Origin: Chloroflexus sp. Y-396-1
Lineage (GTDB): Bacteria; Chloroflexota; Chloroflexia; Chloroflexales; Chloroflexaceae
NCBI RefSeq assembly: GCF_000516515.1
Contig: NZ_KI911784.1
Coordinates: 2,202,881 to 2,266,880, forward strand
Length of the DNA stretch: 64,000 bases
Direction: 5' to 3'
Position numbers and translations under genes: made by a program. Positions 42,262-52,882 of the stretch are shown piece after piece (within the stretch, counting starts at the first letter, position 1; every line of letters begins with the position of its first letter). The notes beneath the pieces were generated by a model, which was not told where the DNA came from, made no database searches, and saw nothing but the letters and a program-made list of their open reading frames with translations.

Positions 42262-43401
42262 TTAATCGGAAGCGCTTACCCGCAACGGGTGTTGGGACGT
42301 AGCCGCACGGCGTGCGGTCCGGCGGTCGGCGTTCAGACGGTGTGCACGGCGTGCTGTGGCTGATGGGAGTGGTAGGGCAGGTACGGCCAGCGCCAAAATC
42401 GCCACGCCAATGCGAAGATCAAAACCAGGCGCCGTGATAACCGGAAATGGATAGTAGACCAGAACAGTGGGTTCAATTAGGCGTATCGTCGCGACTACGC
42501 CAACCGCACTTACCGCAGCGATCCAGGTAAGCGTATCCTGACGATGCCAGCGTTCGCGCCGATAGGTTGTGCGTGGCACACATCGGCTTAATTGGTGGGC
42601 AGCCCAACCGGTGAGGAGAAGACCACCACCGCCAAGTGGGGCGACGAGTGGGAAGCTGGAAGGACCAACCCACAGCCAGCCGATGACCGCAGCCGTCAGG
42701 CTTACCAGACCGAAGACCAGTCCTAGTGTGCGGCCGGTTGCTGGTGTCGTTGATACCGTGCGTCCATAGCCACGTGCTTCGAGTGCTTCGGCCAGTTGGA
42801 GGGCACGCTCAAGACTACCGGCCAGGAGTGGGCTAATCAAAGCTCCCCAACTGCGTATCCCGCCGAACCGATGACCACGGGCACGCTGGGAGTCTGTGAT
42901 GTCCTGGACAGTGCGTACTAATCCTGGGGCAAAAGCAATCGCTATCGTCACGGCAAGACCGGCGTGGAAGAGTGAGCGTGGGGTCAACCGGAGCAGCCGA
43001 TGATGATCGACGAGCGCGTTAAAGGTGCCGAAAATGAGCAGGAGTGTCCACAATCCCAAACCACGAGTGGCGCCCCAGGCCAGGGCTTCGGCCGTGATTG
43101 ATCCGCCAAGGACAATACCACCTGACCATGCCGGTAGCTGGATGGCAGGTAACCGGAAGATCACGGTTGTCCCGCGTGCTCCGCCAACCGTCACGATGGC
43201 AAAGAGAACGTATCCGCACCAGATGAAGGCGCCAACACGAGCAAAGAGGGTAAAACTCCGTGCCAGCAGACGATCATCGCGCCGATTCACGAAGATGTAC
43301 GTCACCACCAGCATCAGCAGGATGTGGTAGAGCGGATGCGGTGTGAGCATTGCGATGGTCACCGTTGCTATCAGCCAGCAGAGCCATGTACGTGTATGCA
43401 T
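42262..43401 (-). CDS. EcfT-type energy-coupling factor transmembrane protein
   Basis: A 379-residue membrane protein with several hydrophobic helices. Two Ala-Arg-Gly signatures, SQRARGHRFGG near 172 and LEARGYGRTV near 205, mark the coupling helices of the EcfT/CbiQ family that contact the ATPases. The N-terminal half gives the core membrane fold, and a C-terminal extension of about 150 residues adds further helices. It is the last gene of the cobalamin-riboswitch operon. No EcfA ATPase or S component is encoded in the window. The ATG shares one base with the cobS stop (TAATG). Confidence 0.82.
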   Translation of the reverse strand: MHTRTWLCWLIATVTIAMLTPHPLYHILLMLVVTYIFVNRRDDRLLARSFTLFARVGAFIWCGYVLFAIVTVGGARGTTVIFRLPAIQLPAWSGGIVLGGSITAEALAWGATRGLGLWTLLLIFGTFNALVDHHRLLRLTPRSLFHAGLAVTIAIAFAPGLVRTVQDITDSQRARGHRFGGIRSWGALISPLLAGSLERALQLAEALEARGYGRTVSTTPATGRTLGLVFGLVSLTAAVIGWLWVGPSSFPLVAPLGGGGLLLTGWAAHQLSRCVPRTTYRRERWHRQDTLTWIAAVSAVGVVATIRLIEPTVLVYYPFPVITAPGFDLRIGVAILALAVPALPLPSATARRAHRLNADRRTARRAATSQHPLRVSASD

Positions 43402-44162
43402 TAGCCATTCCCCAGGCGTACTGTCAACGTAGCCAGTACCACCACTTCGCTGATCTCACAAAGGGCGCCGTAGGTGTCGCCGGTCAAGCCACCGAAGTCA
43501 CGAACCCACCAGCGCGCCAACAGATACGCCAACCCTAGCACCAAACCGAGGGCGATCAACCCGTTAAGGTCGGCGATAAGCCAGGTTACCCCAACTGTGA
43601 GCAATGATGCTAGCCAGAAGTCGCGCTGGCGTACCTGGGAATTAAACATGCGTCCCAGGCCCCCTTCACGTGCAGCAGGAAACCAATAAATACCGAAACA
43701 ATCGGCCCAACGCCCCAGGATCGGCGCCAGCAGGAGGGCAGGCCAGGCGCTTGGCGCGTCGGCAATCAGAGCTACTTTCAGGAAGAGGATCATGATCAGC
43801 GCCGAGGCGCCCATGACCCCGATCCGACTATCTTTCATGATTTCGAGTTTGCGCTCGCGTGATCGCCAGCTCAATGCGGCATCGAACGTATCGCTCAGGC
43901 CGTCAAGGTGCATTCCCCCGGTAATGATGCCCCACACTGCCACTACCAATACGGCAGCGCTGAGGTCACCCCACAACGGTCGGGCCAGCAGGTCAACCGC
44001 AGTTAACACACCGCCGATGACCAGGCCGGCCATCGGAAACCAGGGGATTGCCCGCACAACGCTCTGCTCGTTCATTGGTGGCAGGCCGGGAAGGGGAATG
44101 ATGGTGAGAAAGCGTAGGGCCTCTACCAGACCAATAGGAGAACGGATTGATGATTCGCTCAT
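43401..44162 (-). CDS. cobS: Adenosylcobinamide-GDP ribazoletransferase
   Basis: A 253-residue integral membrane enzyme joining adenosylcobinamide-GDP with alpha-ribazole in the last steps of cobalamin assembly. The family signature is clear: VEALRFLTIIPLPGL, AIPWFPMAGLVIGG, GGMHLDGLSDTFDAAL and MKDSRIGVMGASALI, with acidic residues for metal and nucleotide. ATG 44162 overlaps the CobC stop as ATGA, so a longer upstream reading is rejected. It sits in the riboswitch operon with CobC and EcfT, which supports salvage of corrinoids rather than complete synthesis from this locus alone. Confidence 0.93.
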   Translation of the reverse strand: MSESSIRSPIGLVEALRFLTIIPLPGLPPMNEQSVVRAIPWFPMAGLVIGGVLTAVDLLARPLWGDLSAAVLVVAVWGIITGGMHLDGLSDTFDAALSWRSRERKLEIMKDSRIGVMGASALIMILFLKVALIADAPSAWPALLLAPILGRWADCFGIYWFPAAREGGLGRMFNSQVRQRDFWLASLLTVGVTWLIADLNGLIALGLVLGLAYLLARWWVRDFGGLTGDTYGALCEISEVVVLATLTVRLGNG

Positions 44163-44803
44163 ACATTTTCCGCCGTTGCCGCCAACAACCGTGGTACGTT
44201 GTTGATCGTGCGCATAATGATTGTTGATCCGTATACATCGAGTGCAGTGATACTGCCCAGGTCGATGCGCCAGCGCCAGTATTCGGCTATCGGAAGCTGA
44301 CAACACCAACAGAGTACCAGTTGAATGGGGGTAGTGTGAGTGACGATCAGCACTCGTTGACCCACTGCTCCGGCGAGCAATTCTTGCCATGCCTCATTCA
44401 CCCGGTTTGCTACTTCAGCCAGACTTTCACCCCCTGTGGCCCGACCATCAATGCCGTTTGCCCAGCGTTGCTCAGCTTCATCAGGAAAACGTTGCAGCAC
44501 CTCGCGGTACGTTAGTCCTTCCCAACGTCCGTGATCGATCTCCAACCACCGCGGATCTTCGTGTACCGGGATCGTCGGGTGCCGATTCAAAATCGCCATT
44601 GCCAGAGAGCGGGTTCGCTCTGTTGGGCTAACAATGATGTTGGTAAAGGGTAGCACTTGTAGACGATGGGCAAGAGCCAGGTGCTGGCGCCGACCGTAAT
44701 CGGTCAGGGGGCTATCATGGTGGCCGAGATACCGCCGACTCCGGTTAGCTTCGGTTTGACCGTGACGAATAAGCCAGATACTGGTGTGGCGTGAACTGCC
44801 CAC
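44159..44803 (-). CDS. cobC: Histidine phosphatase, CobC (alpha-ribazole phosphatase) type
   Basis: A 214-residue member of the histidine phosphatase superfamily. WLIRHGQTEANRSRRYLGH carries the catalytic RHG, LTDYGRRQ and SPTERTRSLA the phosphate pocket, WLEIDHGRWEGLTYREV the acid region and VTHTTPIQLVLC the second His. It removes the phosphate of alpha-ribazole 5'-phosphate. The general family is broad, so the CobC call rests on the adjacent cobS with ATGA overlap and the upstream B12 riboswitch. Confidence 0.85.
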   Translation of the reverse strand: MGSSRHTSIWLIRHGQTEANRSRRYLGHHDSPLTDYGRRQHLALAHRLQVLPFTNIIVSPTERTRSLAMAILNRHPTIPVHEDPRWLEIDHGRWEGLTYREVLQRFPDEAEQRWANGIDGRATGGESLAEVANRVNEAWQELLAGAVGQRVLIVTHTTPIQLVLCWCCQLPIAEYWRWRIDLGSITALDVYGSTIIMRTINNVPRLLAATAENV

Positions 44804-44815
44804 TGTGAAACTCCT

Positions 44816-45652
44816 TTATCCCTTGTTACGCCGTCTCAACGTGACCACGATGCCCATAATCAACAGTGCTGCCAGGGCGAGAAAGCCGAGCCATTGCCCA
44901 TTTCCATCCCTTGCCGTGGTTGGCGTAGCCGTTTCGGTTATCGTCGGCAGTGTTGGTGAAGGTGATGTTGGTGACGGCAGTGGGCTGGAGATAGGGGTGA
45001 TGGGTGGCGCTGTTGGTGCTTCTGCGGTTGGTGAAGAAGGGCGGGGAACCGTTGCAGGTGCTGTTGGTCGTGTCGTAGTGATGGTCGGGGCTTCCATCAC
45101 CGTAGGGGTGATAGTTGCAGTGGGTTTGGGGGCAACTGTTGGAATGGTAGCAGTGGGGACGGTTGTGGGTAGCGGTGCTGTCTGACCGCACACATCATTC
45201 AGTTCGAGATCTGGTGGTACCGCGCCACCGCTTGCATCACCCGGCCCCCAGGCCCATCCGTGAAGGTCGCCGTCATTCACCAGAACATTGCTGGCACCCA
45301 AATTGGAATAGCGCCACGCACCGTTCTCACGGCGGTAGAAGGCCCAGTAAACCACTCGACCCTGATCGCGAGCGCAGAAGCAACTAGTCGCCGGATAGTC
45401 GCAACCGTCGCGACCGATTTTACACACTGCGGCGCCGATACTGCTCTGCTGGCTGATCACCGGTAACCCGCTCCGTTCGAGCAGATCAAGTCCACTTATC
45501 GTTGGTTCGTTAAAGGTAATGCATGCCGTCACCACTTCACCATTACCGAAACGTACAACGACACCAGCACGGTTGACCGGTGATTGTGCATTGACCGCAC
45601 CCGAAAGCAGGGTCATCACCAGCAAGATCAGTATCGTGCGCCACGGTTTCAT
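44816..45652 (-). CDS. Surface-anchored DUF4430-like protein (transcobalamin beta-domain-like)
   Basis: A 278-residue exported protein: signal peptide (ILILLVMTLLSGAVNAQS), a domain of about 140 residues, a long Pro/Thr stalk and a C-terminal anchor (LGFLALAALLIMGIVVTLRR RNKG). The domain has VVVRFGNGEVVTACITF, GLDLLERSGLPVI, CDYPATSCFC, YWAFYRRENGAWRY and GDLHGWAWGPGD. The LDLL, YW-x-FY and DGD...W.W pattern is that of DUF4430, the family that, to my knowledge, contains the beta domain of transcobalamin and intrinsic factor. Four or five extra Cys may form disulfides. It lies 4 bases after the alpha-toroid gene. Corrinoid binding is inference. Confidence 0.78.
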   Translation of the reverse strand: MKPWRTILILLVMTLLSGAVNAQSPVNRAGVVVRFGNGEVVTACITFNEPTISGLDLLERSGLPVISQQSSIGAAVCKIGRDGCDYPATSCFCARDQGRVVYWAFYRRENGAWRYSNLGASNVLVNDGDLHGWAWGPGDASGGAVPPDLELNDVCGQTAPLPTTVPTATIPTVAPKPTATITPTVMEAPTITTTRPTAPATVPRPSSPTAEAPTAPPITPISSPLPSPTSPSPTLPTITETATPTTARDGNGQWLGFLALAALLIMGIVVTLRRRNKG

Positions 45653-45656
45653 CGTA

Positions 45657-46721
45657 CTACCCTTGTCTTACCGACGAACGACGTAGCCGGAGGCCAAAGA
45701 CCAGCAGTGTCATCCCAAAGATTGCAACCAGGGCCAGGGCCGGCACGGTTTCGCCACCGGTTGTTGGCAGATTGACGACTGGCGCGATCAACGTTTGTGC
45801 TGCCGGGATCGTGGTGGTCCGTACCGGCAGCGTTCTGCCGGCGACAGCCGGAATCGCCTGATAAGTTGCCAGGGCGTTATCGTCGGGCATTGCGTTTTGA
45901 TAGCGAAAGGCGCCACTTTGATTCTGGAATGCGATCAAGGCCTTCAGCGGTGTTGCTTCACCCTGTCGCCATGGATTGTTGTTGGGATCTTCACCGAGCG
46001 CCAGAATCGCCTGAATCACTGCTGCGGTGGAGTTAGCGTCACTGGCGTTGCCGAATGGTGATGTTTGCGAGTAGGGAAAACCGCCATCGGGATTCTGTTG
46101 ACCACGGAGATAGTTACGGGCGGCGGTTAACGCATCGCCGGCACGAGCATAGCCACTCAAAGCCATCACCGCCAGACTGGTCGTATTGGTATCACTACCG
46201 GTTGCTGCTGCGCCATCAAAACTCCATCCGCCATCGCGTAACTGCACCGCAATCAGACGTTCGATAGCAGGCGCTGGCGGTTGAACTCCCATCGCCTTGA
46301 TGGCCAGGAGGGCCAGGGCATGGCCGTACACATCGGCGCCGTACTGACCGGTGGCCGGGTCGTAGGTTGTACCGAGCTGGCGGGCTAGATTAACTCCACC
46401 GAAATTGAGCGGATCGCGTCCGGCGGCGACGACGGCCAAGATCACCTTGGCTGTTGCGCCAGCCGATGAGGTTCCGTAGCTAGCGGCTTGTCCGGCCAGA
46501 TAGTTGAGTGCGCTAGCAGGTGGTTGTTCACCACCGGCCACGAGCGCCACGATGGCATCAGCAGTATCGCCAGGACCAAAACCGGCAAAACTCCCATCGG
46601 CCTGTTGCTGGCCGAGTATCCACTTCAGCCCGACAGCAACCACATCACTCTGTGCAGCCACCGGTTGCGATACGATCATACTCAAAACCAACGTAAGGAC
46701 AAGGAAAATTGTGCGACGCAT
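45657..46721 (-). CDS. Alpha-toroid repeat protein with LPXTG-type anchor (transcobalamin alpha-domain-like)
   Basis: A 354-residue exported protein: signal peptide (TIFLVLTLVLSMIVSQPVAAQ), then repeats of the terpenoid-cyclase/prenyltransferase alpha-alpha toroid (KWILGQQQADGSFAGFGPGD, LIAVQLRDGGWSF, NYLRGQQNPDGGFPY, LKALIAFQNQSGAFRY). The C-terminus is LPTTGGE, a membrane helix and RLRRSSVRQG, a sortase-type anchor. The toroid lacks the catalytic DxDD and zinc site of squalene or prenyl enzymes that I can see. Transcobalamin and intrinsic factor use this fold as their alpha domain. It is first in the B12-riboswitch operon and is followed by the beta-domain-like gene. Confidence 0.8.
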   Translation of the reverse strand: MRRTIFLVLTLVLSMIVSQPVAAQSDVVAVGLKWILGQQQADGSFAGFGPGDTADAIVALVAGGEQPPASALNYLAGQAASYGTSSAGATAKVILAVVAAGRDPLNFGGVNLARQLGTTYDPATGQYGADVYGHALALLAIKAMGVQPPAPAIERLIAVQLRDGGWSFDGAAATGSDTNTTSLAVMALSGYARAGDALTAARNYLRGQQNPDGGFPYSQTSPFGNASDANSTAAVIQAILALGEDPNNNPWRQGEATPLKALIAFQNQSGAFRYQNAMPDDNALATYQAIPAVAGRTLPVRTTTIPAAQTLIAPVVNLPTTGGETVPALALVAIFGMTLLVFGLRLRRSSVRQG

Positions 46722-50690: not shown

Positions 50691-51344
50691 ATGAAACCGA
50701 GGCTGACACTTGAAATTCTTCAGGTAGAAGCGCAGACGTTTGCCGGTATCGAGTCAGCACACCGAGAGCCGTCATTGTATGGTGTTACGGATGGGAAGGC
50801 TGTTGGCACATACTTCGAGCACAAGTTTCGGTCTTACCTCCGCGAAAAGTACGACTTTGAGGAAGGAAGCTCTGCAAGCGGGATCGACTTTCCTGAACTT
50901 GAAGTTGACATGAAGGTAACAAGCATAAGGCAACCGCAATCATCGTGTCCTTTTAAATCTGCTCGGCAGAAAATCTACGGCTTGGGCTATTCGTTGCTTG
51001 TGTTCGTATACGAAAAAACAGATGATCCCCAAACATCCACAGGAAATCTAAATGTTCTGCACACGATCTTTGTCAGTAAAGAGCGGACGGCAGACTTTCA
51101 AACGACCACAGGTCTTCGCCGAATTCTTGAGAATGAGGGGAACAAGGATGACATTATGGCTCTCATCGAAGAACGCAGACTGCCGGTAGACGAGATCGAG
51201 GCATCAGCGATAGCTGACGAAATCCTTTCCGATCCTCCTGAGGTAGGCTATCTTACCATCTCGAATGCCCTTCAATGGAGACTTCAATATGGTCGCGTCA
51301 TCGAGAAGGCTGGCCTCGTTACAGGTGTTGAAAGGCTGAGATAG
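50691..51344 (+). CDS. Type II restriction endonuclease (PD-(D/E)xK-like)
   Basis: A 217-residue protein directly upstream of a DNA methyltransferase gene (2-base gap). GTYFEHKFRSYLREKYDFEE followed by SGIDFPELEVDMKVTSIRQ gives a Glu in the first helix and the catalytic GID-x8-DMK, a PD-(D/E)xK nuclease core. The rest has no named domain I recognise. It would cleave unmodified DNA at the site protected by the methyltransferase. Codon style is AT-richer than the neighbouring Chloroflexus genes, in line with transfer. The recognition sequence cannot be told. Confidence 0.8.
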   Translation: MKPRLTLEILQVEAQTFAGIESAHREPSLYGVTDGKAVGTYFEHKFRSYLREKYDFEEGSSASGIDFPELEVDMKVTSIRQPQSSCPFKSARQKIYGLGYSLLVFVYEKTDDPQTSTGNLNVLHTIFVSKERTADFQTTTGLRRILENEGNKDDIMALIEERRLPVDEIEASAIADEILSDPPEVGYLTISNALQWRLQYGRVIEKAGLVTGVERLR

Positions 51345-51346
51345 CG

Positions 51347-52882
51347 ATGCGTAATCAAACACAGCGCAAAGTCGAATTCGGGGATTTTCAAACGCCCATC
51401 AGCCTGGCCAGGGAAATTTGTTCCCTTATCGCTCGGACTGGATTTCGCCCTGCTTCTATTCTTGAGCCGACTTGCGGAACGGGTTCATTTCTCAAAGCAT
51501 CTTTAGAAACATTTCCAAACGTGTCACGTGTTCTTGGCTTTGAGATCAATCCGCAATACGTAGCAGAGGCAAAGCAGGCTGTTGCACGCGGGTTCCCTCA
51601 TGCGTCCATTGAAGTTTATCAATCTGATTTCTTCTTCACGAATTGGTCTGAGATTGTTGAAGCGTTGCCTGAGCCCCTCCTTGTTATCGGCAATCCACCT
51701 TGGGTCACAAATACAGCGTTAAGCATGCTGGGCAGTAGCAATGTTCCGACGAAGTCAAATCTGGACAATCTCCGCGGTATTGATGCGCTCACCGGTAAAA
51801 GCAATTTCGACATTTCGGAATGGATGGTTAGAAAGAACATCGAATGGCTCAATGGTAAAAACGGCATGCTTGCGATGCTGTGTAAGACAACAGTGGCACG
51901 GAAGATTCTTTTGTACGCTTGGCAGCACGGCCTACGAATTGAGTCGGCATCGCTGTATATGCTCGACGCGCAGGCATACTTTGGAGCATCGGTTGACGCC
52001 TGCCTTTTGTTCGTTCAGAGCGCTCCGAACGGTAATAGTAAGACCTGTCGGGTTTTTCATGCTCTTCATGCGCAACACCCTGATAGTGTGTTTGGTTGGC
52101 AGGATGGGATGCTTGTAGCCGATCTCAAGTCATACCAAACATGGAAAAACCTGTTAGGTAACGGGTTTCGGGGTTGGCGGTCAGGGATAAAGCACGATTG
52201 TAGCAAGGTCTTTGAACTGAACGTTGAGTCTGGGAAGTTTGTTAACGGGCTGGGAGAATTCGTTGAGCTTGAACCTGAAGTGCTCTTTCCGTTGCTCAAA
52301 AGCTCCGATCTTGCAGCGCACAGGAAGCCGCATCGTTGGATGATTGTTCCACAGCGGACGATGCACGACGATCCGAGTCGTCTCAGGATTGATGCTCCCA
52401 AGACGTGGAAGTACCTGAGCGAGCACGCTCATCTTCTAAATAAACGGAAAAGTTCCATATATAAGAACCGTCCATTCTTCTCGGTCTTTGGGGTTGGCCC
52501 CTATACATTTGCTCCCTGGAAGGTTGCTATCTCAGGGTTATACAAGAAGCTCGAATTTGTCCAAGTGCCACCTTTTCGGGGACGCCCAGTGGTTCTGGAC
52601 GACACCTGTTATTTTTTTCCCTGTAAATCTGAAGAAGAGTGCGATCTCCTGTACGAACTGGTGATGTCCGACCCTGCCAGAGAGTTTTGGTCAGCCTTCA
52701 TTTTCTGGGACGCAAAGCGGCCAATTACGGCACAACTGCTTAACTCGCTTGATCTGATGGTTCTGGCGCGAATGTTGGGGAAAGAGGAAAAGGTTGCGCA
52801 AGCTCTGGCGGAACGGCAGTTGGTAGCGTACACGGAAGGAGCTTACCAGAGGCTCCTTTTTAGAGAAGAAGCTGCTGAATAG
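51347..52882 (+). CDS. Type II N6-adenine DNA methyltransferase
   Basis: A 511-residue class I methyltransferase. ILEPTCGTGSFLKASLETF is the S-adenosylmethionine motif I, VLGFEINPQYVAEAKQAV is motif II, and PLLVIGNPPWVTNTAL carries the catalytic NPPW (motif IV). FGDFQTPISLAREICSLIAR is the usual TaqI-like N-terminus. The C-terminal half is the target recognition domain. It protects host DNA from the endonuclease encoded two bases upstream. The window contains no specificity subunit, so the system is type II rather than type I. Confidence 0.9.
   Translation: MRNQTQRKVEFGDFQTPISLAREICSLIARTGFRPASILEPTCGTGSFLKASLETFPNVSRVLGFEINPQYVAEAKQAVARGFPHASIEVYQSDFFFTNWSEIVEALPEPLLVIGNPPWVTNTALSMLGSSNVPTKSNLDNLRGIDALTGKSNFDISEWMVRKNIEWLNGKNGMLAMLCKTTVARKILLYAWQHGLRIESASLYMLDAQAYFGASVDACLLFVQSAPNGNSKTCRVFHALHAQHPDSVFGWQDGMLVADLKSYQTWKNLLGNGFRGWRSGIKHDCSKVFELNVESGKFVNGLGEFVELEPEVLFPLLKSSDLAAHRKPHRWMIVPQRTMHDDPSRLRIDAPKTWKYLSEHAHLLNKRKSSIYKNRPFFSVFGVGPYTFAPWKVAISGLYKKLEFVQVPPFRGRPVVLDDTCYFFPCKSEEECDLLYELVMSDPAREFWSAFIFWDAKRPITAQLLNSLDLMVLARMLGKEEKVAQALAERQLVAYTEGAYQRLLFREEAAE

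Follow-up and report, generated by a model that had tools for sequence, protein, structure and literature searches.

We found that two adjacent exported proteins of Chloroflexus sp. Y-396-1 together reproduce the two-domain anatomy of the animal cobalamin carriers, and that their genes stand first in an operon under a cobalamin riboswitch. The operon lies on the minus strand of the window, by which we mean the whole stretch of 64,000 nucleotides of contig NZ_KI911784.1 that was analyzed; positions without a locus label follow the numbering of this stretch. With a probability of roughly three in four, we consider the pair to serve outside the cell, tethered to the membrane, as the front end of an ECF-type corrinoid importer repressed by B12, in which the two halves would cover the corrinoid in turn.

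Organization of the operon

The operon leader contains a cobalamin riboswitch (RF00174; 46848-46988, minus strand), which scored 42.7 bits in cmscan against a gathering threshold of 31.5 and aligned with the full model (1-189). It is located approximately 127 nt upstream of the first ATG, on the same strand as the operon, and is one of two cobalamin riboswitches in the 4.89-Mb genome. The genes that follow, all on the minus strand, encode the toroid protein (45657-46721; 354 aa), the beta-domain protein (44816-45652; 278 aa), CobC, CobS and EcfT, in this order. The first two are separate ORFs, with a gap of 4 nt and a stop codon between them. The cobC gene (44159-44803) begins 12 nt after the beta-domain gene, and its product resembles alpha-ribazole phosphatase (PF00300, 9.1e-56; TIGR03162, 150.8 bits, which is below the cut-off of 162.9). 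It overlaps by 4 nt with cobS (43401-44162, ATG at 44162), which encodes an adenosylcobinamide-GDP ribazoletransferase (PF02654, 4.6e-56; TIGR00317, 145 against a cut-off of 110), and cobS in turn overlaps by 1 nt with ecfT (42262-43401). The ecfT product is a CbiQ-type transmembrane subunit of 379 aa (PF02361, 43.9 bits against a cut-off of 25), in which two ARG coupling motifs were recognized by eye. Because the next gene is on the opposite strand, we placed the end of the operon after ecfT. The earlier note on this DNA had put two adjacent exported ORFs at the head of a riboswitch-controlled operon with cobC, cobS and ecfT, and the ORF positions, the riboswitch score and the family models all agree with that description.

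Elsewhere in the window, two adjacent plus-strand ORFs of 217 and 511 aa were observed at 50691-52882. The second resembles an N6-adenine DNA methylase, and the two are possibly a restriction-modification system.

Structure of the beta-domain protein

The beta-domain protein consists of a signal peptide, a domain of 137 aa (45173-45583, minus strand), a Pro/Thr-rich stalk (44903-45172, minus strand) and a C-terminal transmembrane anchor (44831-44899, minus strand) followed by an RRR tail. The stalk and the anchor were read from the sequence, and both are also present in orthologues. Searches by sequence gave little. The Pfam family DUF4430 (PF14478) had no match in the window protein and a best E-value of 0.18 in one of 26 relatives, the PDB contained no meaningful match by sequence, and an hhalign comparison of the Cys-rich clade with a true DUF4430 protein reached a probability of 2.5%, over the last 40 columns only. 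The NCBIfam model SCO2322_fam matched at 1.4e-8 with 35.3 bits, below its cut-off of 85. Since the sequence-only routes failed, the kinship with DUF4430 and the transcobalamin beta domain was settled by structure. The AlphaFold (AF2) model of the domain had a mean pLDDT of 95.1 and showed a helix (31-37) followed by two strands (42-47 and 50-56), which constitute a beta-hairpin insert after the helix. When compared with the PDB, the model matched haptocorrin (4kki, Z 12.1), intrinsic factor (3kq4, Z 11.7), bovine transcobalamin (TC; 2bb6, Z 11.6) and the cobalamin (Cbl)-bound TC-beta (5np4, Z 11.1); the matches to these three carriers ranged from Z 10.9 to 12.1, at about 2.0 A over 97-100 residues. 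Only one other structure matched strongly, a putative metal-binding protein of bacterial origin (3u7z, Z 12.2); the next unrelated fold scored Z 5.6. Judged by the fold of this model, the protein is a member of the transcobalamin-like SLBB clade, and its domain is a beta-grasp domain of the corrinoid-binding type. The earlier note had called it DUF4430-like; this is correct by fold, where a structural match was found at Z 11-12, but not by Pfam score, where there were zero matches.

Six Cys residues (44, 77, 84, 91, 93 and 155 of the protein) are invariant in an alignment of 26 relatives, and there are invariant Trp residues as well. When fusions and single-domain proteins were aligned together over their full length, the last strand came out misplaced, and a smaller alignment was used instead. 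Among 44 sequences, Cys 21 and Cys 132 of the domain (C44 and C155 in the protein) were both present in 33, both absent in 10 and discordant in 1 (p = 4e-9, a value that is too optimistic since the rows are related). This joint retention or loss suggests a bond between the two. The other four conserved Cys residues lie in the post-helix region that contacts B12 in transcobalamin (contact according to PMC1796856).

A second beta-domain paralogue occurs in Anaerolineae operons. It carries a PEP-CTERM-like tail (PEPATLLLLGSG...RRR) and was found at L084:5214-5774, L085:5232-5804, L087:4279-4830, L090:5050-5610, L094:2748-3716, L097:5183-5851, L101:5308-5883 and L105:5280-5861; several of these paralogues are without the C21/C132 pair.

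Structure of the toroid protein

The toroid protein has a signal peptide at about residues 1-23 and a toroid at about residues 24-300. The Pfam model PF13243 (SQHop_cyclase_C) matched it with 28.7 bits against a cut-off of 26.1, which identifies it as an alpha-alpha toroid of the kind found in transcobalamin and intrinsic factor, and the same fold was also seen in the model of a natural fusion relative. The NCBIfam model SCO2321_fam matched at 7.5e-36, with 123.9 bits against a cut-off of 300. A profile built from 31 toroid relatives found squalene-hopene cyclase in the PDB (6e-47), and the nearest solved structures are terpene cyclases (Z 24) rather than TC; squalene-hopene and drimenyl diphosphate cyclases were the best matches by both sequence and fold. 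With the toroid recognized by PF13243 and the beta domain by its model at Z 11-12, the two-domain transcobalamin anatomy that had been read from the two ORFs is supported.

The C-terminus of the toroid protein (45660-45770, minus strand) is composed of LPTTGGE, a hydrophobic transmembrane stretch and RRSSVRQG. The sortase-signal model TIGR01167 matched this tail at 16.2, against a cut-off of 15.9, the genome has four sortases, and seven other toroids of the set carry LPXTG. However, five Chloroflexus relatives have LPRTAG in place of LPTTG. The LPTTG anchor proposed in the earlier note is consequently a possible sortase signal, and sortase anchoring is uncertain because of these genus mates.

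Several toroid and beta-domain proteins of Chloroflexota have no transmembrane anchor and show a short Y/F-L-P-L-V/I/A-type motif near the C-terminus (L101:4153-5256, L102:1194-3590, L103:3539-5848, L109:5905-6492, L111:5899-6501 and L112:682-2301), which is possibly an unrecognised sorting signal.

Conservation of toroid, beta domain and riboswitch

We scanned 84,980 species genomes with patterns made from the beta domain alone. Neighboring genes played no part in this retrieval, so that the neighbor counts are independent evidence. The scan identified 39 loci, nearly all in Chloroflexota, from Chloroflexales, Anaerolineae, Ardenticatenales, Caldilineales, Thermomicrobiaceae and one Dehalococcoidia MAG, together with MAGs whose labels are loose or unexpected. 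A toroid adjoins the beta domain in 34 of the 39 loci, a B12 riboswitch lies upstream on the same strand in 31, and both are present in 30. The genomes concerned mostly hold one to five B12 riboswitches each; given such small numbers and the frequencies of toroid and riboswitch, we rejected the possibility of chance neighbors, and the expectation that the pair would recur beside B12 riboswitches was borne out. ECF genes were also found among the 39 loci: EcfT in 23, an S component (PF12822) in 16, and ATPases in fused form in 15, and in many of the loci the row of genes extends to a full ECF transporter. The operons of most relatives lack cobC and cobS. In 36 of 61 genomes of near relatives we detected an SCO2322-type domain, and BLAST analysis of the loci in these 36 genomes showed the toroid, the beta domain and EcfT as neighbors in most. 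The beta domain was present in 100 of 400 sampled Chloroflexota genomes.

In four of the 39 loci the halves are fused in one chain. The order is toroid-toroid-beta in L099, and the beta domain comes first in L100, L103 and L112; owing to this order, sequential aligners cannot superpose both domains of the L112 fusion model on TC. The number of toroids per chain varies from one to three, and some loci have two beta-domain genes. Duplicated or triplicated toroids in one chain were observed at L098:2354-5080 and in L085, L099, L102 and L107. Five loci lack a toroid. Two of them (L086 and L104) have less than 100 nt of upstream sequence, and the other three (L109, L111 and L113) have a beta domain without a toroid despite available upstream sequence, which means that the pair is not obligatory. 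At L109:5905-8973 and L111:5899-8991, the beta-domain gene directly precedes cobC, a cobT-like gene and cobS, and these loci have no toroid and no riboswitch.

Probable corrinoid uptake and synthesis in the host genome

The window operon encodes the T subunit only; genes for S and the ATPase are absent from it. By comparison with the operon-borne subunits of relatives, we identified an S homologue at C1:2338367 (47% identical, 1e-63, the only match) and a fused ATPase homologue at C1:2587950 (61% identical, best by far), and by this similarity the two are clear candidates for partners of the window EcfT. The S proteins (PF12822) had no NCBIfam match to a B12 family. The link to ECF transport drawn in the earlier note thus holds for T in the operon and for S, T and ATPases in the loci of relatives, but in this genome the candidates for S and the ATPase are encoded at other loci.

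The second B12 riboswitch of the genome (G000:C1:3800439-3800583; L058 and L074) precedes a long corrin biosynthesis operon. Family models identified CbiC, D, ET, L, F, G/H, CobA, CbiA/CobB and CobQ in it, and adenosyltransferase-like and CobN-like proteins, CobT and the cobalt transporter CbiMQO were recognized by eye. Because these de novo pathway genes stand under the second riboswitch, the organism probably makes the corrin ring itself. This weakens the argument, also made in the earlier note, that the pair answers a need of Chloroflexus for cobalamin. In the stretch of the second operon that was read, neither cobS nor cobC was seen. For this reason, the cobC and cobS of the window are probably required for de novo synthesis as well and give no indication of salvage. 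The window operon would then be a B12-repressed site of nucleotide-loop assembly and, probably, of uptake.

Related loci in other phyla and with another transporter type

On a plasmid of Latilactobacillus curvatus (CP117684.1), an LPXTG toroid, a DUF4430 protein, EcfT, an ATPase and S are encoded in one row. This operon shares with the window the split pair, its order and the LPXTG-type motif, and its toroid matched the Chloroflexus toroid profile with a probability of 99.1. It differs from the window in that its DUF4430 is seen by Pfam (6.7e-17), its ECF set is complete, no B12 riboswitch was detected in it and cobC and cobS are lacking. In Streptomyces sp. SAT1, a B12 riboswitch is followed by a toroid chain that matches both SCO2321 and SCO2322; a hypothetical protein, EcfT and an ATPase come next. 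These two loci indicate one widespread system with split and fused forms. The window pair matches the SCO2321 and SCO2322 families (NF053823 and NF040672) distantly, with scores far below both curated cut-offs; the two are neighbors in Streptomyces coelicolor, judging by their locus-tag names, and the family names assign no function.

One Anaerolineae MAG (L113:1256-5091) has a B12 riboswitch, a FecCD permease, a fusion of the beta domain with a Peripla_BP_2 (BtuF-type) domain, and an ABC ATPase. As read from its genes, this single case ties the beta domain to BtuCDF-type B12 transport as well. We found no second full-length fusion of this kind at E 1e-55 among 400 Chloroflexota genomes, and a wide distribution of it is therefore not supported.

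Comparison with known systems

Burroughs, Balaji, Iyer and Aravind defined a transcobalamin-like SLBB clade in bacteria in 2007, with signal peptides, Gram-positive anchors, toroid fusions and CbiO/CbiQ neighbors, and predicted that such surface proteins scavenge B12 (PMC1796856). In Lactobacillus, one protein already carries an annotation as an extra lipoprotein part of a putative cobalamin ECF transporter (PMC9963975). The general idea of a bacterial B12 binder made of a toroid and a transcobalamin domain is therefore not new, and the bacterial counterpart of transcobalamin described in the earlier note, though upheld as a split pair, is not unprecedented. The present clade resembles the 2007 set in its surface exposure, toroid association, CbiQ/CbiO-type neighbors and predicted B12 scavenging. 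Unlike that set, in which toroid-SLBB fusions and hosts usually without key B12 biosynthesis enzymes were stressed, it is Cys-rich, below Pfam thresholds and mostly split, and its Chloroflexus host has a de novo pathway; Chloroflexus is not mentioned in the main text of that paper (PMC1796856). What appears to be new is the six-Cys clade missed by Pfam, the split as its usual state and its tie to B12 riboswitches, together with the dispersed Chloroflexus version, with candidate S and ATPase elsewhere, in a genome that probably provides for corrin synthesis. In the open literature, which leaves most subscription papers outside, we found no experimental study of a bacterial member.

ECF importers are usually taken to operate without an extracellular binding protein. 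The Bacteroides lipoproteins BtuG and BtuH have folds unrelated to those of the window pair and serve TonB-dependent import across the outer membrane. They are alike in their working, since they capture B12 at the surface ahead of an importer (PMC6143338, PMC8941943). The cobalamin transporter ECF-CbrT is likewise an ECF-type B12 uptake system, with S, T and two ATPases, but the main text of the paper on it mentions no lipoprotein, so no such extracellular capture protein is described there (PMC5997447).

The animal carriers transcobalamin, intrinsic factor and haptocorrin share with the window pair an alpha-alpha toroid and a beta-grasp domain with a hairpin insert. The window proteins differ from them in being bacterial and two chains, each membrane-tethered, with six conserved Cys residues in the beta domain; in several bacterial natural fusions the domain order is reversed, and the corrinoid ligand of the bacterial pair is predicted.

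Proposed mechanism and alternative explanations

We propose that the two polypeptides correspond to the two domains, the toroid protein to the alpha domain and the Cys-rich protein with its stalk to the beta domain. One half would catch a corrinoid, and the other half would then cover it; in the simplest case, the stalked beta-grasp domain would be the first to bind. When human TC-alpha and TC-beta are expressed apart, they need cobalamin in order to assemble, and the same holds for the halves of intrinsic factor (PMC5599065). The loaded complex would hand its ligand to the ECF S component and the T/ATPase unit, for which the window operon would supply T, and other loci of the genome S and the fused ATPases. 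The co-expressed CobC and CobS would complete the nucleotide loop of a salvaged or home-made corrinoid. There is good support for a role of the pair in capturing corrinoids as the front end of an ECF importer, with binding itself predicted from sequence and model. By analogy, it is plausible that the halves would clamp a single corrinoid between them, because natural fusions exist and the human TC halves assemble in a Cbl-dependent manner. As to the ligand, the pairing, the order of binding and the hand-over, we infer them. We also consider, tentatively and at somewhat less than even odds, a ligand-gated split receptor, the halves of which would meet only around a corrinoid, so that assembly would signal the loaded state to the S component and the beta half would be a portable module. 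The BtuF-type fusion (one case) and the cobC/cobT/cobS operons without a toroid speak for such portability.

The same solo beta domains (L109 and L111) and the BtuF-type fusion (L113) would also be expected if the beta-grasp protein alone bound the corrinoid and the toroid served as wall scaffolding, presented the binder or bound another ligand, without a two-halved clamp. TC-beta binds Cbl by itself (5np4; PMC5599065), and the variable toroid count also fits. We regard this as distinctly unlikely, however, given that the toroid is adjacent in 34 of the 39 loci, in four of them in one chain, and that both domains of TC and IF touch the ligand (PMC1796856). A ligand of the pair other than cobalamin, be it cobinamide or another incomplete corrinoid or a different cobamide, is on balance unlikely. 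The cobC and cobS genes directly downstream would fit cobinamide salvage, the organism probably makes its own corrin ring, and TC-beta and haptocorrin take cobinamide too (PMC5599065). However, these two genes probably serve de novo synthesis as well, since neither was seen in the stretch of the other B12 operon that was read, and they are missing from most relatives' operons. The cyclase matches of the toroid would suit a secreted terpene-cyclase-like enzyme beside an unrelated anchored protein with no corrinoid role. We rejected this highly improbable explanation on context and conservation: the proteins are exported and anchored, ECF genes are nearby, the riboswitch recurs in 31 of the 39 loci, and the partner matches TC, IF and haptocorrin at Z 11-12.

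Significance

The tethered front end of an ECF importer thus remains our preferred explanation. The proteins are small and come from a thermophilic genus, and they should be soluble once trimmed, so that binding and assembly are directly testable. A B12-controlled surface pair beside an ECF importer bears on how single-membrane bacteria capture corrinoids. The pair occurs as separate halves and as reversed fusions, in Bacillota and Actinomycetota also, and being built like an animal B12 carrier, it bears on the proposed acquisition of transcobalamin by animals from bacteria (PMC1796856).
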